The position numbers were made by a program, and so were the translations under genes. DNA of 64,000 bases from positions 65,638 to 129,637 of the forward strand of contig PLZD01000002.1 of assembly GCA_003151975.1 (NCBI GenBank), given 5' to 3'. The notes under the pieces were generated by a model. It saw nothing but the letters and a program-made list of their open reading frames with translations. It searched no databases and had not been told where the DNA came from. The DNA comes from Elusimicrobiota bacterium. Lineage in GTDB: Bacteria; Elusimicrobiota; Elusimicrobia; UBA1565; UBA9628. Below, piece by piece: positions 54,890-60,862 of this stretch. Numbering within the stretch: position 1 is the first letter of the stretch; each line of letters opens with the position of its first letter.

Positions 54890-56017
54890 CTAGGCCTTAG
54901 CCGCTTCCGGTTCCCGGCCTTTCAGGTGGACCCATAAGCCCGCCAGGGCCGTGGCGATGAGCATGCATCCCACGAAGGACGTGGCGTGCGCCCAGGCGTT
55001 GTAGTGCTTCAAAATACCCAGCGACGCGGCCAAGGTCATGCCGTCGTTCTTGATGCAGCCGCCGAAGGTGTTCATGTCGGGCGAGCCGGGAGCCGCCCAG
55101 TGGCCGCCGATGCTCAGCAGGCTTTGCCCCAGCCAAAATAACGCCGCCTGCCCCATCACCGGCCGATCACGCAGCCAGAAATGGACGAGCACCGCCGCCG
55201 GGGCCAAGGCCTGCAGGGCGAGCGCCCCGATCATCGCGCTTCCCTCGTCGCCCATCAGGCCGAACAGCAAGTGCCCTGCGAAGTGAAACGGATAATCGAC
55301 CAAGTCGAAGGGCGAAAACACGGTCAGCGCTAAGTCTCCGGCCAATGACAACACCAAGCCGGCGGCCGCGGCGACGGCCATCGTCATCGGATCGTTGAAC
55401 GCCTCGAACATAGGCAAAGACGGAGCGGGCGCCGGCGGGAGAGTCCCGGCCGCCGCCATCGAGACGGGCAGTTGTGTCGCCCGGCTGGAAAAGGCCGGAG
55501 ACAGCGTCCGCGTGGCTCCGACGACGGGGATCGCCTCGAGCAGGTCGAGCGGCTCGGGCAGGCCGCTGAAGTATTCGATGCCCAAGTTGATGAACGCGCA
55601 GGCCTGAGCGCCGTGGCTGTGGGTGAAGACCGGGCGAGTCACGAAGATCCTGCCGGGCGGCGTGACTTCCTGCATCAAGGAAAGCAACTTGGCGTCCTTG
55701 TCCGGCACGGGCCCGCCGGCCGAGCCGTTGCTTGCGTGGACGGTCAGGCGGACGCAGGCCTGCTTCTCATCGGGCTTGCCGCGATTGTAGTCCGCAAAGC
55801 GCGCCTGCGCGGCCAGGGCGCAAGCGACGGCGGACGGCGCCTTATCGAAGGCCATGAGGCAGAAACCTCCGGCCGACGGAACGAGCCGGCCTTCGTGCTT
55901 CTTGGCGAGCCCCTCGAGTATGATGACCGGCATGCTCGCCATCTCCGGTCCGCCGGTCTCGCTTTTGACGGGCTTGCCGGTTCCGTCGCTGATGCCGGCG
56001 AGCAGCAGCGCCGGCAC
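54890..56017 (-). CDS. Membrane protein with a degenerate class III cyclase-like domain
   Basis: A 375-residue protein. Residues about 1-165 follow the class III nucleotidyl-cyclase/CHD layout: an ISDGTG segment in the place of the metal-binding FADIVGFT, then LVPSAGGFCLMAFDKAPSAVACALAAQ in the place of the second metal motif, and a late strand-rich part. The second Asp (normally GDG) is replaced by AGG, so catalysis is unlikely. The C-terminal half has five or six membrane helices, including a PFHFAGHLLFG motif. The GTG at 56017 comes 1 nt after the kinase stop. It may act as a sensor or scaffold in the signalling operon. Confidence 0.6.
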   Translation of the reverse strand: MPALLLAGISDGTGKPVKSETGGPEMASMPVIILEGLAKKHEGRLVPSAGGFCLMAFDKAPSAVACALAAQARFADYNRGKPDEKQACVRLTVHASNGSAGGPVPDKDAKLLSLMQEVTPPGRIFVTRPVFTHSHGAQACAFINLGIEYFSGLPEPLDLLEAIPVVGATRTLSPAFSSRATQLPVSMAAAGTLPPAPAPSLPMFEAFNDPMTMAVAAAAGLVLSLAGDLALTVFSPFDLVDYPFHFAGHLLFGLMGDEGSAMIGALALQALAPAAVLVHFWLRDRPVMGQAALFWLGQSLLSIGGHWAAPGSPDMNTFGGCIKNDGMTLAASLGILKHYNAWAHATSFVGCMLIATALAGLWVHLKGREPEAAKA

Positions 56018-56018
56018 C

Positions 56019-57308
56019 TTAGGCGACCCCCACGGATTTGGCGAAGTCGCCGATGGTCTGAAAACGCTGGTTGGGATCGAACTCAAGGCAGCGCTCGACG
56101 GCGGCGGCGATTTCGCCCGGCGTGTCGGGTGCGACCTCGAGCAGGCGGCGGTAATCCTTCTTCTCTTTTTGGAGATAAAAGTTCGGACCTCGGAAAGGGA
56201 GCTCTCCGCTGAGCAGCTCGTAGACCGTGGCGCCCAAAGCGAAAATGTCGCAGCGCATGTCTCCCTTGCCGAGCTCCTGCTCCGGCGCCATGTAGGGCAT
56301 CGTTCCGGAGGTGTCGAGGCGGCTCGTGCGGGAGGCGGTGTCCTTGAAGGCGCGCGCGATGCCGAAATCCATGACCTTCGCGTAGCCCTGCTTGTTGATC
56401 ATGATGTTCGAGGGCTTGAGATCCCGGTGGGCGTAGCGCTCGGAGTGCGCGTAGGCCAGAGCCTCGCAGATGCACTTGAGCAGGGGCCGGAGCTCCTTCG
56501 CGTCAAAGGGCCCTTTTTCGTCCAGGCGCTCTTGCAATGTCTTCCCATCGACGTACTCGAAGACGAGAAAAATCTCGGGGCCCTCATCGAGGATCGAGTA
56601 GATGTCGACGATGAAGGGATGGTGCAGGGCGGCCGAGGTCTTGGCCTCCTTCAGGAACAGCGTCTTGTCGCGACCCGACATCGCCACCTCGGGGCGCATG
56701 CGCTTGACGGCGACGAGACGATCGAGGCTGGTGTCTTTCCCCTCGTAGACGAGCCCCATGCCGCCGCTTCCGATGTGCTTGAGAATCTCGTACTTGCCGC
56801 CCAGCACTTTCCCGATGAGCTCGCCGTCGGGCTTGCCCGGCATCGTGGCCATCTCGGAGACCGGGGCCGCCTGTCTTGTCACGACCTGGAGCGCGGGAAG
56901 ACCGAGATTCTCGCGCTGAGAGTTGAGCGCCGCGATCCACTCGTCGCGCTCGGCGAGCCGCTCGGGGCGCGCCCGGGTCCAGCCCGCGTCGCGGAAGTAG
57001 AGCACGAGCTTGGCGAGGCCCTTGCCCGGTTCGCGCAAGTCGAATTCGATGTGGGGCTCGGCGCCGTCTCCGCTGGGGCGCATGGCCTCGACGGCCGAGA
57101 CGGGGAACTCGTGGACGACGGGCCCGATCCCCTTCTCCGTGGCTTTGAGAAAATCGTAGAAGGACTCGCAGAGGACCATCCGCGAGTTCGTCAGGAACGG
57201 GTGGCACAGGCGCCCCAGAAGCGAGGCGTCGGGGCGCACGAAGTGATGGTCCGCCGATTCCTTGATGAGCGTCTCCTTCTCGGCGAGCGGGAATCCCGGT
57301 TCTACCAT
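56019..57308 (-). CDS. Ser/Thr protein kinase with N-terminal PH/GRAM-like domain
   Basis: A 429-residue protein. The N-terminal 150 residues look like a PH/GRAM-type lipid or peptide-binding domain. The kinase domain (about 165-429) is complete: glycine loop GSGGMGLVYEG, Lys in VAVKRM, HRDLKPSN catalytic loop, DFGIA and MAPEQ. It phosphorylates Ser/Thr, probably in response to envelope signals. No transmembrane segment is visible. The ATG at 57308 overlaps the end of the HD-GYP gene by 7 nt. It is the third gene of the gspE signalling run. Confidence 0.9.
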   Translation of the reverse strand: MVEPGFPLAEKETLIKESADHHFVRPDASLLGRLCHPFLTNSRMVLCESFYDFLKATEKGIGPVVHEFPVSAVEAMRPSGDGAEPHIEFDLREPGKGLAKLVLYFRDAGWTRARPERLAERDEWIAALNSQRENLGLPALQVVTRQAAPVSEMATMPGKPDGELIGKVLGGKYEILKHIGSGGMGLVYEGKDTSLDRLVAVKRMRPEVAMSGRDKTLFLKEAKTSAALHHPFIVDIYSILDEGPEIFLVFEYVDGKTLQERLDEKGPFDAKELRPLLKCICEALAYAHSERYAHRDLKPSNIMINKQGYAKVMDFGIARAFKDTASRTSRLDTSGTMPYMAPEQELGKGDMRCDIFALGATVYELLSGELPFRGPNFYLQKEKKDYRRLLEVAPDTPGEIAAAVERCLEFDPNQRFQTIGDFAKSVGVA

Positions 57309-58408
57309 GCGGTGGTCTGCACCTTGACCAGCGGGATGAAGGCCTCGACCACTCTCGGATCGAAGCTCGTCCCGGAGCCGGCCTTGGCCTCCTGGACGGC
57401 TTTGGCATGCAGATCGTAGCCGCGCAGCCCCACCATGCGCAGCTCCTCCACGCATTCGACGAGATGCAGGATGCGCGCGCCGAGCGGGATCTTCTCGGCC
57501 TTGAGCTTATCGGGGTAGCCCTGGCCGTCGAAGCGCTCATGGTGATGGAGGACCATCGGGATCGCGCCTTCGATCATCTTAATACCGTCCAGCAGCTTCG
57601 CGGAGAGGACGGGGTGCAGTTCTTCGCCGGCCTTGAGCACGCCCATGTCGGCCAAGGTCTCGGGGCTGTTGAAGGCGACGTAGCCGACGTCGTGGAGCAG
57701 TCCGGCGTAATAAAGCATGCGGTACTCGAAGTCATCGACGCCGAGCGCGCGGCCGAGCGCGCAGGCGAGCTTGGCCGAGCGCATGCAGTGGCCTTCCATG
57801 CCGGGCTTGGCGGTCTCCGCGGCGAGGCACAGGAGCTCCAGAATATGCGAGAAGAAGTTCTTTTGGTCCGAGATCGTGCGCGTGTTGGCCACCGCCGCGG
57901 ACGCGAAAGAGGCCAAGGTCGAGAGCAAGGCCACGTGCTCTTCCTTGAAACCGCCTTGCCTCTTGTTGAGCACCTCGACGACGCCGATGAGCTCGCCGCG
58001 GAACTCCATCGGCACCGCCAGCACCGAGCGCGTCACAAATCCCGAGGCCTTGTCGAACTGGACGGCAAAGCGCGGGTCCGACTGCGCGTCGTTGACGACC
58101 TCGGGCTGGCGCGTCTTGGCGACCGAACCCGCGATGCCCTCACCGATCGGCAAAGTCAGCGCCTTGACCGCCCCGCCTTTGTCTCCGCCCGCCGTTTTAA
58201 AGAACAGGCGCTTGCCGTCCTCGGTGGTCAGCATGATCGCGCTGGCCTCGGCGTCGAGCAGCTGTTCGGCCGCGGACCCAAGCTTCTGCAGAAGAAAATC
58301 GAGGTCCATCGCCGAGTTGAGCCCCCCGGCCAACGAGAAGAGCTCAAGGGCGGTCTTGAGATCGATGATCCCGGTCGGACTCGCCCCGTTTGTCGGTATC
58401 TTCGCCAT
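57302..58408 (-). CDS. GAF and HD-GYP domain protein
   Basis: A 368-residue protein with an N-terminal GAF domain (about 25-180) and an HD-GYP phosphodiesterase (about 195-368). It keeps LLHDVGY and the HD-GYP motif HHHERFDGQGYP. HD-GYP proteins degrade cyclic di-GMP. A GAF domain would bind a small ligand and control activity. The ATG is 1 nt downstream of the gspE stop, and the 3' end overlaps the kinase start. No GGDEF cyclase is in the window. Confidence 0.93.
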   Translation of the reverse strand: MAKIPTNGASPTGIIDLKTALELFSLAGGLNSAMDLDFLLQKLGSAAEQLLDAEASAIMLTTEDGKRLFFKTAGGDKGGAVKALTLPIGEGIAGSVAKTRQPEVVNDAQSDPRFAVQFDKASGFVTRSVLAVPMEFRGELIGVVEVLNKRQGGFKEEHVALLSTLASFASAAVANTRTISDQKNFFSHILELLCLAAETAKPGMEGHCMRSAKLACALGRALGVDDFEYRMLYYAGLLHDVGYVAFNSPETLADMGVLKAGEELHPVLSAKLLDGIKMIEGAIPMVLHHHERFDGQGYPDKLKAEKIPLGARILHLVECVEELRMVGLRGYDLHAKAVQEAKAGSGTSFDPRVVEAFIPLVKVQTTAW

Positions 58409-58409
58409 G

Positions 58410-60212
58410 TCAGTCGGTGCCGCCCAGGACCTCGCGCACCGTGGTGATGCCCTGCTTGACCTTCTCGAAGCCGTCCTGGGCGATCAGGCGCATGCCGCGC
58501 TTCTGCGCCGCGGCTCGGATCATGTCGACGGCCGAGGTGTGCAGGCAGACCGCGCGCACGTCGTCGTCCATGACGAGCAGCTCATGAAGGCCGACGCGGC
58601 CGCGAAATCCAATGCCTTTGCAGTCGGGACAACCTCCCTCCTTCGGCGGGCCGAAGATCTTGGTCCCGGCGGGAAGATCGACTTTATTTTCCTTGAAAAG
58701 CTTGATCTCCTCCGGCAGAGGATCGTGCGCGACCTTGCACTTCTCGCAAAGCCGTCGTGAAAGGCGCTGGGCGAGGATGGCCTTGACCGTGGTGGCGACC
58801 ATGAAGGCGGGCAGGCCCATCTCGGAGAGCCGCGAGACGGCCGATGGAGCGTCGTTGGTGTGGATCGTCGAGAAGACGAGATGTCCCGTCATGGCGGCTT
58901 CCATGGCAATGTGGGCGGTCTCCTTGTCGCGGATCTCGCCGACCATGATCACGTCGGGGTCGAAACGCAAAAACGAGCGCAGGGCCATCGAGAAGTCGAA
59001 CTTCTTGTCCTCGCCGAGCTTGAGGTCGGGGTTGACCGGGATCTGCACGATGCCGTCGAGGTTGTACTCGACGGGATTTTCGGCGGTCAGGATCTTGATC
59101 TCCGGCTTGTTGATGTGGTTGAGCGCGCCGTAGAGCGTCGTCGACTTGCCCGAACCCGTGGGCCCGCAGACGAGGATCAAGCCGAAGTTCTTCTTGCCGC
59201 CGATGCCCCTAAGCAGGGCCAGCAGGCGCTCGAGCGTGTCGGGCATGAAGCCCATCTTGAGTATGTCCACCTTCACCGAGGCGCGGTCGAGTATGCGCAT
59301 GACGCAGGCCTCGCCGTAGACCGTCGGCAGCATCTCGACGCGAAACTCGACGGGGTTTCCCTTGTTGAGCACCTGTATGCGCCCGGATTGAGGGATCCTG
59401 CGCTCGGTGATGTTCATCGAGTTGGTCATGATCTTGATCTTTGCGGCGATCGCCTGGCGGTAGGCCCACGGAATTTTCGCGGGCCCGGCGACGAGCACGC
59501 CGTCGACGCGGTAGCGCAGAAGAATCCTCGAGTTCTTGCCGGTGGGATCCTCGAACGGCTCGATATGGATGTCGGAGGCCTTCATCGCAAGCGCGCTCAG
59601 GATGATCGAGTTGACGATCTTCTCGATGACGGGCGCCGAGGCGTCGAGCTTGGCGATGTCGGCCTTGGTGTCTTCTTTGACGACCTCCAGGCCCGAATCC
59701 TTGGGGATGCCCCAATCCTCCATCGGGGGCGCCTCTTCCTCGATGGCTTTGATGAGCGCGCCGCCGCCCTTGCCCCAGGCGGCGTCGAGCGTCGCGAGGA
59801 TGTCGGCCGGCATCGCGAGAGAGCCCTTGATCTCGAGGCCCGTGCGCAGCTGCAGGTCCTCGAGAATGAAGAGGTCGCGCGGGTCGGCCATCGCGAACGA
59901 AATCTTATTCTCCTCCTTCGCGAAGGACACCGCCAGGTGCTTGCGCGCGACCTTCTCCGGAAGAATCTTCGCGATGTCGGCGCTGACGTCCATGTCGATG
60001 ATGTTGATCTCCTCGACCTGCCAATCCTCGGAAAGCGCCTTGAGCATGGCCTGCTTGGTCATGAACTTCTTATCGACGACGACCTGCTGGAGGGATTTGT
60101 TCTCGGAGAGCGCCTCGGCCTCGGCTTGATTGAGCTGCTCCTCGGGCAATGCTTTGCGCTCGAGAAGAATCTCTTTGACGGTTTTGTGGCGTTGGAGGCC
60201 TTTGACCGCCAT
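58410..60212 (-). CDS. GspE/PilB-type secretion or pilus ATPase
   Basis: A 600-residue protein. An N-terminal MshEN-like domain (residues about 1-150) is followed by the ATPase: Walker A VCGPTGSGKSTT, Walker B VIMVGEIRD and the His box SRLSEMG region. The tetracysteine zinc motif CEKC then CPDC lies near 480-520. It powers type IV pilus or type II secretion assembly. Because the next genes make a GAF-HD-GYP protein and a kinase, the ATPase could be regulated by c-di-GMP, which binds MshEN domains in related proteins. The promoter at 60251 and AAGGAAGG precede the ATG. Confidence 0.93.
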   Translation of the reverse strand: MAVKGLQRHKTVKEILLERKALPEEQLNQAEAEALSENKSLQQVVVDKKFMTKQAMLKALSEDWQVEEINIIDMDVSADIAKILPEKVARKHLAVSFAKEENKISFAMADPRDLFILEDLQLRTGLEIKGSLAMPADILATLDAAWGKGGGALIKAIEEEAPPMEDWGIPKDSGLEVVKEDTKADIAKLDASAPVIEKIVNSIILSALAMKASDIHIEPFEDPTGKNSRILLRYRVDGVLVAGPAKIPWAYRQAIAAKIKIMTNSMNITERRIPQSGRIQVLNKGNPVEFRVEMLPTVYGEACVMRILDRASVKVDILKMGFMPDTLERLLALLRGIGGKKNFGLILVCGPTGSGKSTTLYGALNHINKPEIKILTAENPVEYNLDGIVQIPVNPDLKLGEDKKFDFSMALRSFLRFDPDVIMVGEIRDKETAHIAMEAAMTGHLVFSTIHTNDAPSAVSRLSEMGLPAFMVATTVKAILAQRLSRRLCEKCKVAHDPLPEEIKLFKENKVDLPAGTKIFGPPKEGGCPDCKGIGFRGRVGLHELLVMDDDVRAVCLHTSAVDMIRAAAQKRGMRLIAQDGFEKVKQGITTVREVLGGTD

Positions 60213-60250: not shown

Positions 60251-60279
60251 AGTTTAGCCCCCCTCCGAAGGAATGTCAA
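60251..60279 (-). promoter_or_regulatory. Promoter of the gspE signalling operon
   Basis: On the minus strand TTGACA (60274-60279), 17 nt, TAAACT (60251-60256). A second TATAAT lies closer to the gene. The leader of about 32 nt contains the Shine-Dalgarno sequence. Confidence 0.65.
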
Positions 60280-60308: not shown

Positions 60309-60800
60309 CTACTTGGTCCACCACTGTTTGAGCTTGGCCGTGCGGCAGATCTCGGCGAACTGAGGGCCCAGCTCCGGGAACTCCGCTTCCATCATCTTCA
60401 TGATGTTGGAGCGCACCGCCGGCCCGGTCATCAAGGTCACGTCGGCAATGCCTTCCAAGATCCAGCCGGTGAAGGACTTGGCGTCGATGGCGAGCTCGGG
60501 AGCCGCGCCGGGCAGCATCTTGAGCAGGAATCGAGAGGTCAGAGGCACGTCCTGGCCGATCTCCGCGATGCCGCGCATGGTCCCGCGCGCGACGCGGCGG
60601 ACGATCATCCTGTGCTCCTTCTTATCCTTGGCGGCCTTGAGCCAAGTCTCGGCGGTCTCCTTGGCGAGCTCCGCGGCTTGCGACGGGCCGTCTTCGGCGC
60701 TCTTGAGGCGGCTCGAGACGATCTTGGTGTAGGCGCTGAACTCAGGATCCTTCTCGTCCGGGTTGTCCGGCTTCACGCCCCACTGCCATCGGTTGGTCAT
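60309..60800 (-). CDS. Hypothetical protein with PCP-reductase-like charge pattern
   Basis: A 163-residue, mostly helical protein without signal or membrane segments. It starts MTNRWQWGVKPDNPDEKDPEF and has a basic helix KDKKEHRMIVRRVARG and a C-terminal RTAKLKQWWTK. I recognise no family. The ATG at 60800 is preferred over 60818: TTGACG (60834-60839), 18 nt and TATTCT (60810-60815) place the transcript start only 2-3 nt before it. It lies head to tail with the gspE run. Confidence 0.65.
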   Translation of the reverse strand: MTNRWQWGVKPDNPDEKDPEFSAYTKIVSSRLKSAEDGPSQAAELAKETAETWLKAAKDKKEHRMIVRRVARGTMRGIAEIGQDVPLTSRFLLKMLPGAAPELAIDAKSFTGWILEGIADVTLMTGPAVRSNIMKMMEAEFPELGPQFAEICRTAKLKQWWTK

Positions 60801-60862
60801 GTTGGTTTGAGAATACATCTAGCGGCGCCCCCGCGTCAAGTCTCGACGCGGTCCAGATTGCG

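Follow-up and report, generated by a model that had tools for sequence, protein, structure and literature searches.

The subject of this study is a cluster of four genes in the genome of an uncultured Elusimicrobiota bacterium (G000; 4.64 Mb in 68 contigs). The genes encode a GspE/PilB-type ATPase, a GAF-HD protein, a Ser/Thr kinase with a PH-like domain, and a membrane protein with a cyclase-like domain. The window, i.e., the whole stretch of DNA that was analysed, is 64,000 nucleotides (nt) long (G000:C2:65638-129637), and positions given below without a contig name are counted from its first letter. All four genes lie on the minus strand between 54890 and 60212, in the transcription order gspE, GAF-HD, kinase, pseudo-cyclase/membrane protein. 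The first two genes recur together in many genomes and are called the pair in what follows. The features of the locus are listed here.

58410 to 60212, minus strand: gspE/pilB-type ATPase, 600 amino acids (aa), with a degenerate MshEN N-terminus; it falls in the pair clade of the GspE tree
57302 to 58408, minus strand: GAF-HD protein derived from HD-GYP, 368 aa, with HDVGY for HDxGK and VECVEE for ADxxDA
56019 to 57308, minus strand: PH-like domain plus Ser/Thr kinase, 429 aa, with VAVK, HRDLKPSN, DFG and APE intact
56832 to 57308, minus strand: N-terminal PH-like domain of the kinase, residues 1–159 as modelled (predicted structure)
56058 to 56792, minus strand: protein kinase domain, residues 173–417 (Pfam Pkinase, PF00069, E = 5e-52)
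54890 to 56017, minus strand: pseudo-cyclase plus membrane protein, 375 aa, with a GTG start at 56017
55514 to 56017, minus strand: class III cyclase-homology domain, residues 1–168, without the metal Asp, Asn or Arg residues
54908 to 55396, minus strand: degenerate copy of a HEAGH...HDW membrane family, residues 208–370 (HFAGH, NDG), with no Pfam or NCBIfam match
60251 to 60279, minus strand: sigma-70-type promoter-like site TTGACA-17-TAAACT, a consensus match only, about 40 nt upstream of the gspE ATG

The tight packing described in an earlier note on this DNA, made from the letters alone, was confirmed. A gap of 1 nt separates gspE from the GAF-HD gene, the GAF-HD and kinase genes overlap by 7 nt, and a second gap of 1 nt separates the kinase and pseudo-cyclase genes. 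The kinase ATG at 57308 overlaps the GAF-HD stop codon; a longer open reading frame (ORF) of 478 aa begins further upstream. Three promoter-like sites were seen between 54600 and 60900, compared with 0.7 expected from shuffled sequences. Besides the Pkinase domain, Pfam searches identified T2SSE (E = 4e-111) and MshEN in the ATPase, and GAF and HD_5 (9e-20) in its neighbour; the 54890 protein had no Pfam match at E ≤ 1, and no domain in the kinase N-terminus scored above the cut-off. Gene order and domain content thus support the idea of a packed signalling unit around a GspE/PilB-type ATPase. An artefactual ORF is ruled out by the intact frames and by the presence of the same cluster in G082, a genome of another family; because the four genes are clustered there as well, their adjacency is not due to chance.

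The ATPase motifs of the window GspE (Walker A, Walker B/Asp and His boxes) are intact; its sequence includes GPTGSGKS, IMVGEIRD, GHLVFSTIHTND and two CxxC pairs. The protein shares these motifs, the CxxC pairs and near full-length homology with the filament extension ATPases PilB and GspE, and residues 14–599 of the pair GspE align with a solved PilB (phmmer, E = 5e-112). However, it scored below the NCBIfam cut-offs for both TIGR02538 (521.9 bits; cut-off 675.65) and TIGR02533 (474.5 bits; cut-off 630.25), whereas the genome's own PilB, encoded on contig C26, just reaches the PilB equivalog cut-off at 675.8 bits. Contig C26 also encodes PilT and a PilC-like protein, and C23 encodes a GspE/PilB-like and GspF-like pair below the NCBIfam cut-offs; the PilC-like protein of C26 likewise scores under its cut-off. 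The earlier note had placed all of the signalling genes in control of one motor. Because the genome has a pilB-pilT-pilC-like set elsewhere, that part of the proposal does not stand, and we regard the window ATPase as an accessory GspE-type enzyme. Two extension motors in one cell have reportedly been described in a study of the type IV pili of Acinetobacter baylyi (PMC8213720), an arrangement that G000 would share; the available part of that study mentions no kinase, GAF-HD or cyclase partner. In the whole genome there are 21 matches to the T2SSE family, several of them in open frames of 600–870 aa.

Comparisons were made with 196 or 235 genomes of the class and 340 genomes of the phylum, many of them incomplete. 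A profile search for the HD protein identified 80 places in 75 of the 196 class genomes at E ≤ 1e-60, and the flanks of all 80 were read by tblastn. In 74 of them gspE lies directly upstream of the HD gene on the same strand. The six places with no gspE within 1.2 kb are L104, L291 and L292, which are divergent; L110, a fused ORF; L271, at a contig end; and L281, which has gspE 1.3 kb upstream. The 35 pair GspEs included in a tree of 44 rows form one clade (support 100/99), separate from the PilB and the remaining GspEs of G000. At L262 and L107 (in G115 and G082:C1) tblastn found the pair gspE in two pieces, possibly because of a frameshift, an insertion or a sequencing error.

The most frequent location of the pair is an operon for methylmalonyl-coenzyme A (CoA) mutase, in the usual order mcmL-gspE-HD-mcmS-meaB-mce-pccB-mdh; the labels of the metabolic genes were read from the proteins at L045 and L105 and by tblastn, not from Pfam. 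Such an operon holds 46 of the 80 HD places, and in 35 the pair lies between the two mutase subunits. From mcmL through meaB the genes commonly overlap or are separated by short gaps. The HD genes stand directly before pccB at nine other places, with the PH-like kinase at three, and in none of these contexts at 22. The association also holds when counted from the mutase. Its small subunit (E ≤ 1e-25) was found in 57 of 235 class genomes, and an HD gene lies directly upstream of it in 42. Among the remaining 15, G060, G018 and G020 have the HD gene at a contig end, G026 has the HD gene and the small subunit on different contigs with the HD gene away from the end, G141 lacks any HD match, and the small subunit of the other ten is more distant (45–66% identity). 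G000 itself has a standard copy of the pair between the large and small mutase subunits on C17 (G000:C17:171136-174045; L045, L105), to which the window proteins are 69% (GspE) and 63% (HD) identical; the window pair is therefore a paralogue. Among the literature matches listed, we found no paper joining methylmalonyl-CoA mutase with GspE or HD-GYP; one of them, on an archaeal virus, names the mutase together with PilB.

The window HD protein belongs to the same family (HD_5) as the HD-GYP phosphodiesterases PmGH and RpfG, and has kept HHE and GYP. Six His/Asp ligand positions that were checked are also retained (H207, H239, D240, H265, H289 and H290, equivalent to H189, H221, D222, H250, H276 and H277 of PmGH). 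In contrast, Tyr replaces the Lys of HDxGK, and Glu occupies the equivalents of PmGH D305 and D308. According to the available part of a report on PmGH (PMC4159591), an Ala substitution of the Lys or of the structural Asp D308 impairs activity to a degree comparable with the mutation of a metal ligand, and D305A reduces activity without abolishing it. Of the 80 class HD proteins, 63 have Tyr at the Lys position, 6 have Phe, 3 Leu, 3 Met, 2 Arg, and 3 Lys; the three that keep Lys are divergent copies with no adjoining gspE and with other ligands lost. In genus g4, which belongs to the same family as G000, all 16 HD copies have lost His/Asp metal ligands, and all 16 are still in the mutase operon. 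Two other, canonical GAF-HD proteins of G000 keep HDIGK. The window protein is of HD-GYP ancestry, but, judged by these residues, its assigned activity as a phosphodiesterase of cyclic di-GMP (c-di-GMP) is probably impaired.

Loss of motif residues extends to the N-terminus of the ATPase. As defined in the available portion of PMC5013675, the c-di-GMP-binding MshEN domain consists of two RLGxx...LxxxLxxQ half-motifs. Each half-motif of the window GspE matches 4 of 11 key positions, without Arg1, Gly3 or Gln24, and the NCBIfam MshE-related motif scored 22.3 bits of the 38 needed. None of the 34 alignable pair GspEs has any of these three residues in either half-motif (one of the 35 in the tree, with an unreadable N-terminus, was left out), whereas the genome's own PilB retains Gln24 in both. 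The suggestion that the GspE N-terminus binds c-di-GMP is thus not supported for the pair.

The model of the earlier note was that an active HD-GYP lowers c-di-GMP near a c-di-GMP-binding GspE, with the kinase and the cyclase-like sensor as inputs. Several observations are consistent with it. The window HD keeps its six ligands; every one of the 196 class genomes has GGDEF proteins, with 10 matches in G000; two f7 loci (L099 and L100) have a REC-GGDEF gene directly before the pair; and at a third locus (L096) a PilZ-like gene (E = 0.0003; 21.5 of 22.5 bits) and a GAF gene lie downstream of it. The PilB of M. xanthus, moreover, signals and has c-di-GMP-binding motifs, according to the accessible part of PMC5544727. 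Nevertheless, the model is weakened because two sequence requirements, the phosphodiesterase Lys (missing in 77 of the 80 HD proteins) and the MshEN motif, fail, and the genus-g4 copies and the two Glu substitutions of the window protein also count against it. We consider this model unlikely, and c-di-GMP control of the window motor weakly supported. A lack of c-di-GMP-making enzymes as the cause of the degenerate motifs is ruled out by the GGDEF proteins present in every class genome.

The kinase retains the VAVK Lys and its other listed motifs, and by these Hanks-type criteria it appears to be intact. For its N-terminus, a PH or GRAM domain had been guessed, and the predicted structure agrees at the level of the fold: the model (pLDDT 80.1, built from 4 sequences) is a beta barrel with a C-terminal helix, and it gave 27 matches in the PDB at E ≤ 0.001, the best at 9e-5 (Trio and Sac2), with template modelling (TM) scores by query of 0.44–0.55. 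This PH-like kinase domain was found in 3 of 235 class genomes and in 3 of 340 phylum genomes; the two counts found the same three genomes and are not independent. There are two copies in G000, one in G082 and one in G109. Three of these four copies are clustered with a GAF-HD gene, namely the window copy, the G082 copy and, as a fusion, the G109 copy; in two of the three clusters gspE is present as well.

The N-terminus of the 54890 protein is predicted to have the cyclase-like fold that had been proposed for it. An AlphaFold2 model of residues 1–180 reached a pLDDT of 86.7 and a predicted TM score of 0.83 from 21 aligned sequences, which include true cyclases and so bias the model toward a cyclase fold. 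In Foldseek searches the best PDB matches were the class III adenylyl cyclases Ma1120 and Rv1900c (E = 9e-12; TM by target about 0.8); there were 172 PDB matches at E ≤ 0.001, and the 50 listed were all nucleotidyl cyclases. A phmmer search with the domain matched a third, 3mr7, at E = 0.0033. The window domain differs from these enzymes in its catalytic residues. The earlier note had described loss of the second metal Asp (AGG), which the alignment confirmed; however, the first metal Asp is also gone, as are the transition-state Asn and Arg of class III cyclases. Loss of just one metal Asp is thus ruled out. All three kinase-linked cyclase domains (in the window, in G082 and on G000:C36) lack both metal Asp residues; the latter two keep the Arg.

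The second half of the 54890 protein, from about residue 208 to residue 370, falls in a membrane protein family whose members measure about 175–250 aa and have HEAGH and HDW motifs; because the window copy reads HFAGH and NDG, it is a degenerate member. Matches to either half of the protein were found in 66 of 196 class genomes. Pfam and NCBIfam searches with the membrane half and three relatives gave zinc-ribbon matches in two of the relatives, below the cut-off. Among the family members at L007–L034, several have an N-terminal zinc-ribbon-like stretch.

The PH-kinase and the dead cyclase are a separate pair from gspE-HD. In G000 they also stand alone, on C36, a contig with no T2SSE or HD_5 match. 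Downstream of that standalone pair a long protein is encoded (L225:1-2796) in which visual inspection suggested SEL1-like repeats and, after them, a kinase domain.

The history of the locus was examined through its recurrence. In G082, which belongs to the same taxonomic order as G000, one locus has the order kinase-cyclase-gspE-HD, compared with gspE-HD-kinase-cyclase in the window; its HD gene is truncated by the contig end. In G109, from the genus of G082, the kinase continues in frame into the second half of the GAF domain and the HD domain (L110:236-2188), a fusion made either by deletion within a kinase-cyclase-gspE-HD locus or by misassembly of one. The window and G082 GspEs are sisters in the tree (100/97) and 72% identical, and their kinases are 52% identical. 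In an HD tree of 39 hand-chosen rows of the 80, the window, G082 and G109 HDs form a clade (100/99); the pccB-linked pairs of G082 and G109 sit apart from this four-gene clade, with those of their own family. From these trees and gene orders we infer that the locus arose when two modules of two genes each came together, and that they have since stayed linked although their order changed. The notion of a conserved gene set stands in part: the four genes recur in G082, with a remnant in G109, but what is conserved is the GspE and GAF-HD pair rather than a foursome. A four-gene unit conserved across the phylum is ruled out by the kinase N-terminus, with its three genomes of 340.

These comparisons bear on whether the window holds a decaying duplicate, that is, a unit losing function whose gene linkage has no functional meaning. 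The HD, cyclase and membrane domains without catalytic-type residues fit such decay, as does a complete set in just two genomes. On the other hand, the four window frames are intact and tightly packed, and the active sites of GspE and the kinase appear intact. The G082 copy, at the identities given above, is open as far as it is sequenced, and its cyclase has also lost the metal Asp residues; both pairs stay together despite the altered order. We consider decay very unlikely.

The reading that we prefer, tentatively and at somewhat less than an even chance, is that the locus is an accessory motor unit with a pseudo-HD-GYP partner and an added kinase input. The gene composition, the intact and lost catalytic residues, the conservation and the paralogy are observed directly, and the folds were obtained as predictions. 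The core of this paralogous unit would be the GspE/PilB-type ATPase and its cognate GAF-HD partner. The HD protein would act as a ligand-sensing pseudo-enzyme, through its GAF domain, and would gate the ATPase much as FimX acts on PilB. A second unit would have been added to this core, consisting of the catalytically intact-looking PH-domain kinase and the dead class III cyclase fused to a membrane domain, with the cyclase serving as scaffold, partner or anchor of the kinase. The kinase would phosphorylate the ATPase or the GAF-HD protein. The motor would then be switched by phosphorylation and the GAF ligand, and not by c-di-GMP or cyclic AMP made or broken within the unit; the lost and retained residues suggest that phosphorylation, rather than a second messenger, controls the window ATPase. 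The ATPase itself may work on a type IV filament, with the platform protein encoded at another locus.

A known parallel to such gating is the FimX-PilZ-PilB system. The GGDEF and EAL domains of FimX are degenerate. In the accessible part of PMC11656802, FimX is a multi-domain relative of c-di-GMP enzymes that acts on the extension motor PilB. By analogy, the likeness would lie in such a relative acting on an extension motor; the difference is that FimX carries REC-PAS-GGDEF-EAL, whereas the Elusimicrobia regulator is a GAF-HD protein encoded adjoining the motor, with a Ser/Thr kinase added.

Several results weigh against the accessory-motor reading. The platform gene, PilC/GspF, which would be expected beside a PilB/GspE motor, was absent from the fetched flanks of all 80 class places, the window included, although the same queries do find platform genes beside the genome's pilB (C26) and the C23 gspE. 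Because of this absence, the case for a filament role in Elusimicrobia comes from sequence homology and a handful of neighbouring genes. Most often the pair sits in a metabolic setting (the 46 mutase operons and the nine places before pccB). The complete four-gene set occurs in two genomes, the G082 copy of it ends at a contig end, and the G109 remnant is without gspE and cyclase. Finally, the window HD keeps the six ligand positions, and RpfG also lacks two of the PmGH ligands (PMC4159591, in the part available); residual phosphodiesterase activity is therefore possible.

The neighbours of the pair in other lineages are of two kinds, metabolic genes and signalling or filament genes; the latter, which include the REC-GGDEF and PilZ-like genes named above, favour the accessory-motor reading. 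At L159 the end of a CHASE2-cyclase gene with intact Asp motifs lies some 40 nt upstream of the pair, and two PilT-like ATPases lie downstream. At L160 the pair is preceded by a PEGA Ser/Thr kinase and a PilB-like ATPase and followed by a REC gene. A prepilin peptidase and a pilin-like gene are 2–3 kb downstream of the pair at L085, and in Poribacteria (L170) PilC/GspF comes immediately after a GAF-HD gene with HDIGI. The metabolic neighbours at other loci include malic enzyme and fumarase, NadA, CoA-transferase and, at L103, malate dehydrogenase.

Three side observations were made in these flanks. The five genes of L160:1931-10388 (PEGA kinase, PilB-like ATPase, pair gspE, GAF-HD and REC) stand in a row, a separate link of the pair to a kinase. 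CHASE2-class III cyclases adjoin GAF-HD genes at L159:5455-7218 (Elusimicrobia) and at L174:8956-12238 (an Aegiribacteria metagenome-assembled genome). Upstream of the window operon, a 169-aa ORF (60309-60818) matched nothing in Pfam or NCBIfam and nothing at the remaining 79 HD loci.

The metabolic neighbours, the mutase and pccB operons, and the missing platform gene could all be explained if the pair serves mutase or propionate metabolism, in assembly, reactivation or signalling, and the window holds a repurposed, kinase-controlled copy that is not a filament motor. That 42 of 57 small-subunit genomes have the HD gene directly upstream, with three more at contig ends, argues for this explanation. 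The retained ATPase motifs of filament motors and the alignment of the pair GspE with PilB over nearly its whole length argue against it, as do the two PilT-like genes, the second PilB-like gene and the Poribacteria platform gene that flank the pair elsewhere. On balance we think it improbable. In a more specific version, GspE and a dead HD-GYP partner, placed between the two mutase subunits in Elusimicrobia, would have been recruited into B12-dependent methylmalonyl-CoA metabolism, as an ATPase associated with the mutase or as a sensor of metabolism and not as a pilus motor, and the window copy would be a duplicate re-wired under a PH-domain kinase with a pseudo-cyclase partner; this seems to us decidedly unlikely. 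The mutase operon is nonetheless the strongest unexplained observation: either propionate metabolism informs a filament motor, or the ATPase has left filaments.

GspE/PilB ATPases are known as motors of pili and secretion systems, and a conserved pair of such an ATPase with a pseudo-HD-GYP protein between the subunits of a mutase was unexpected. With this placement, one can test directly whether propionate metabolism is linked to filament motors or whether this family of ATPases has taken on an entirely new role. The window illustrates how such a pair can be copied and gain an input from a kinase, several signalling enzymes being left as domains without catalytic function.

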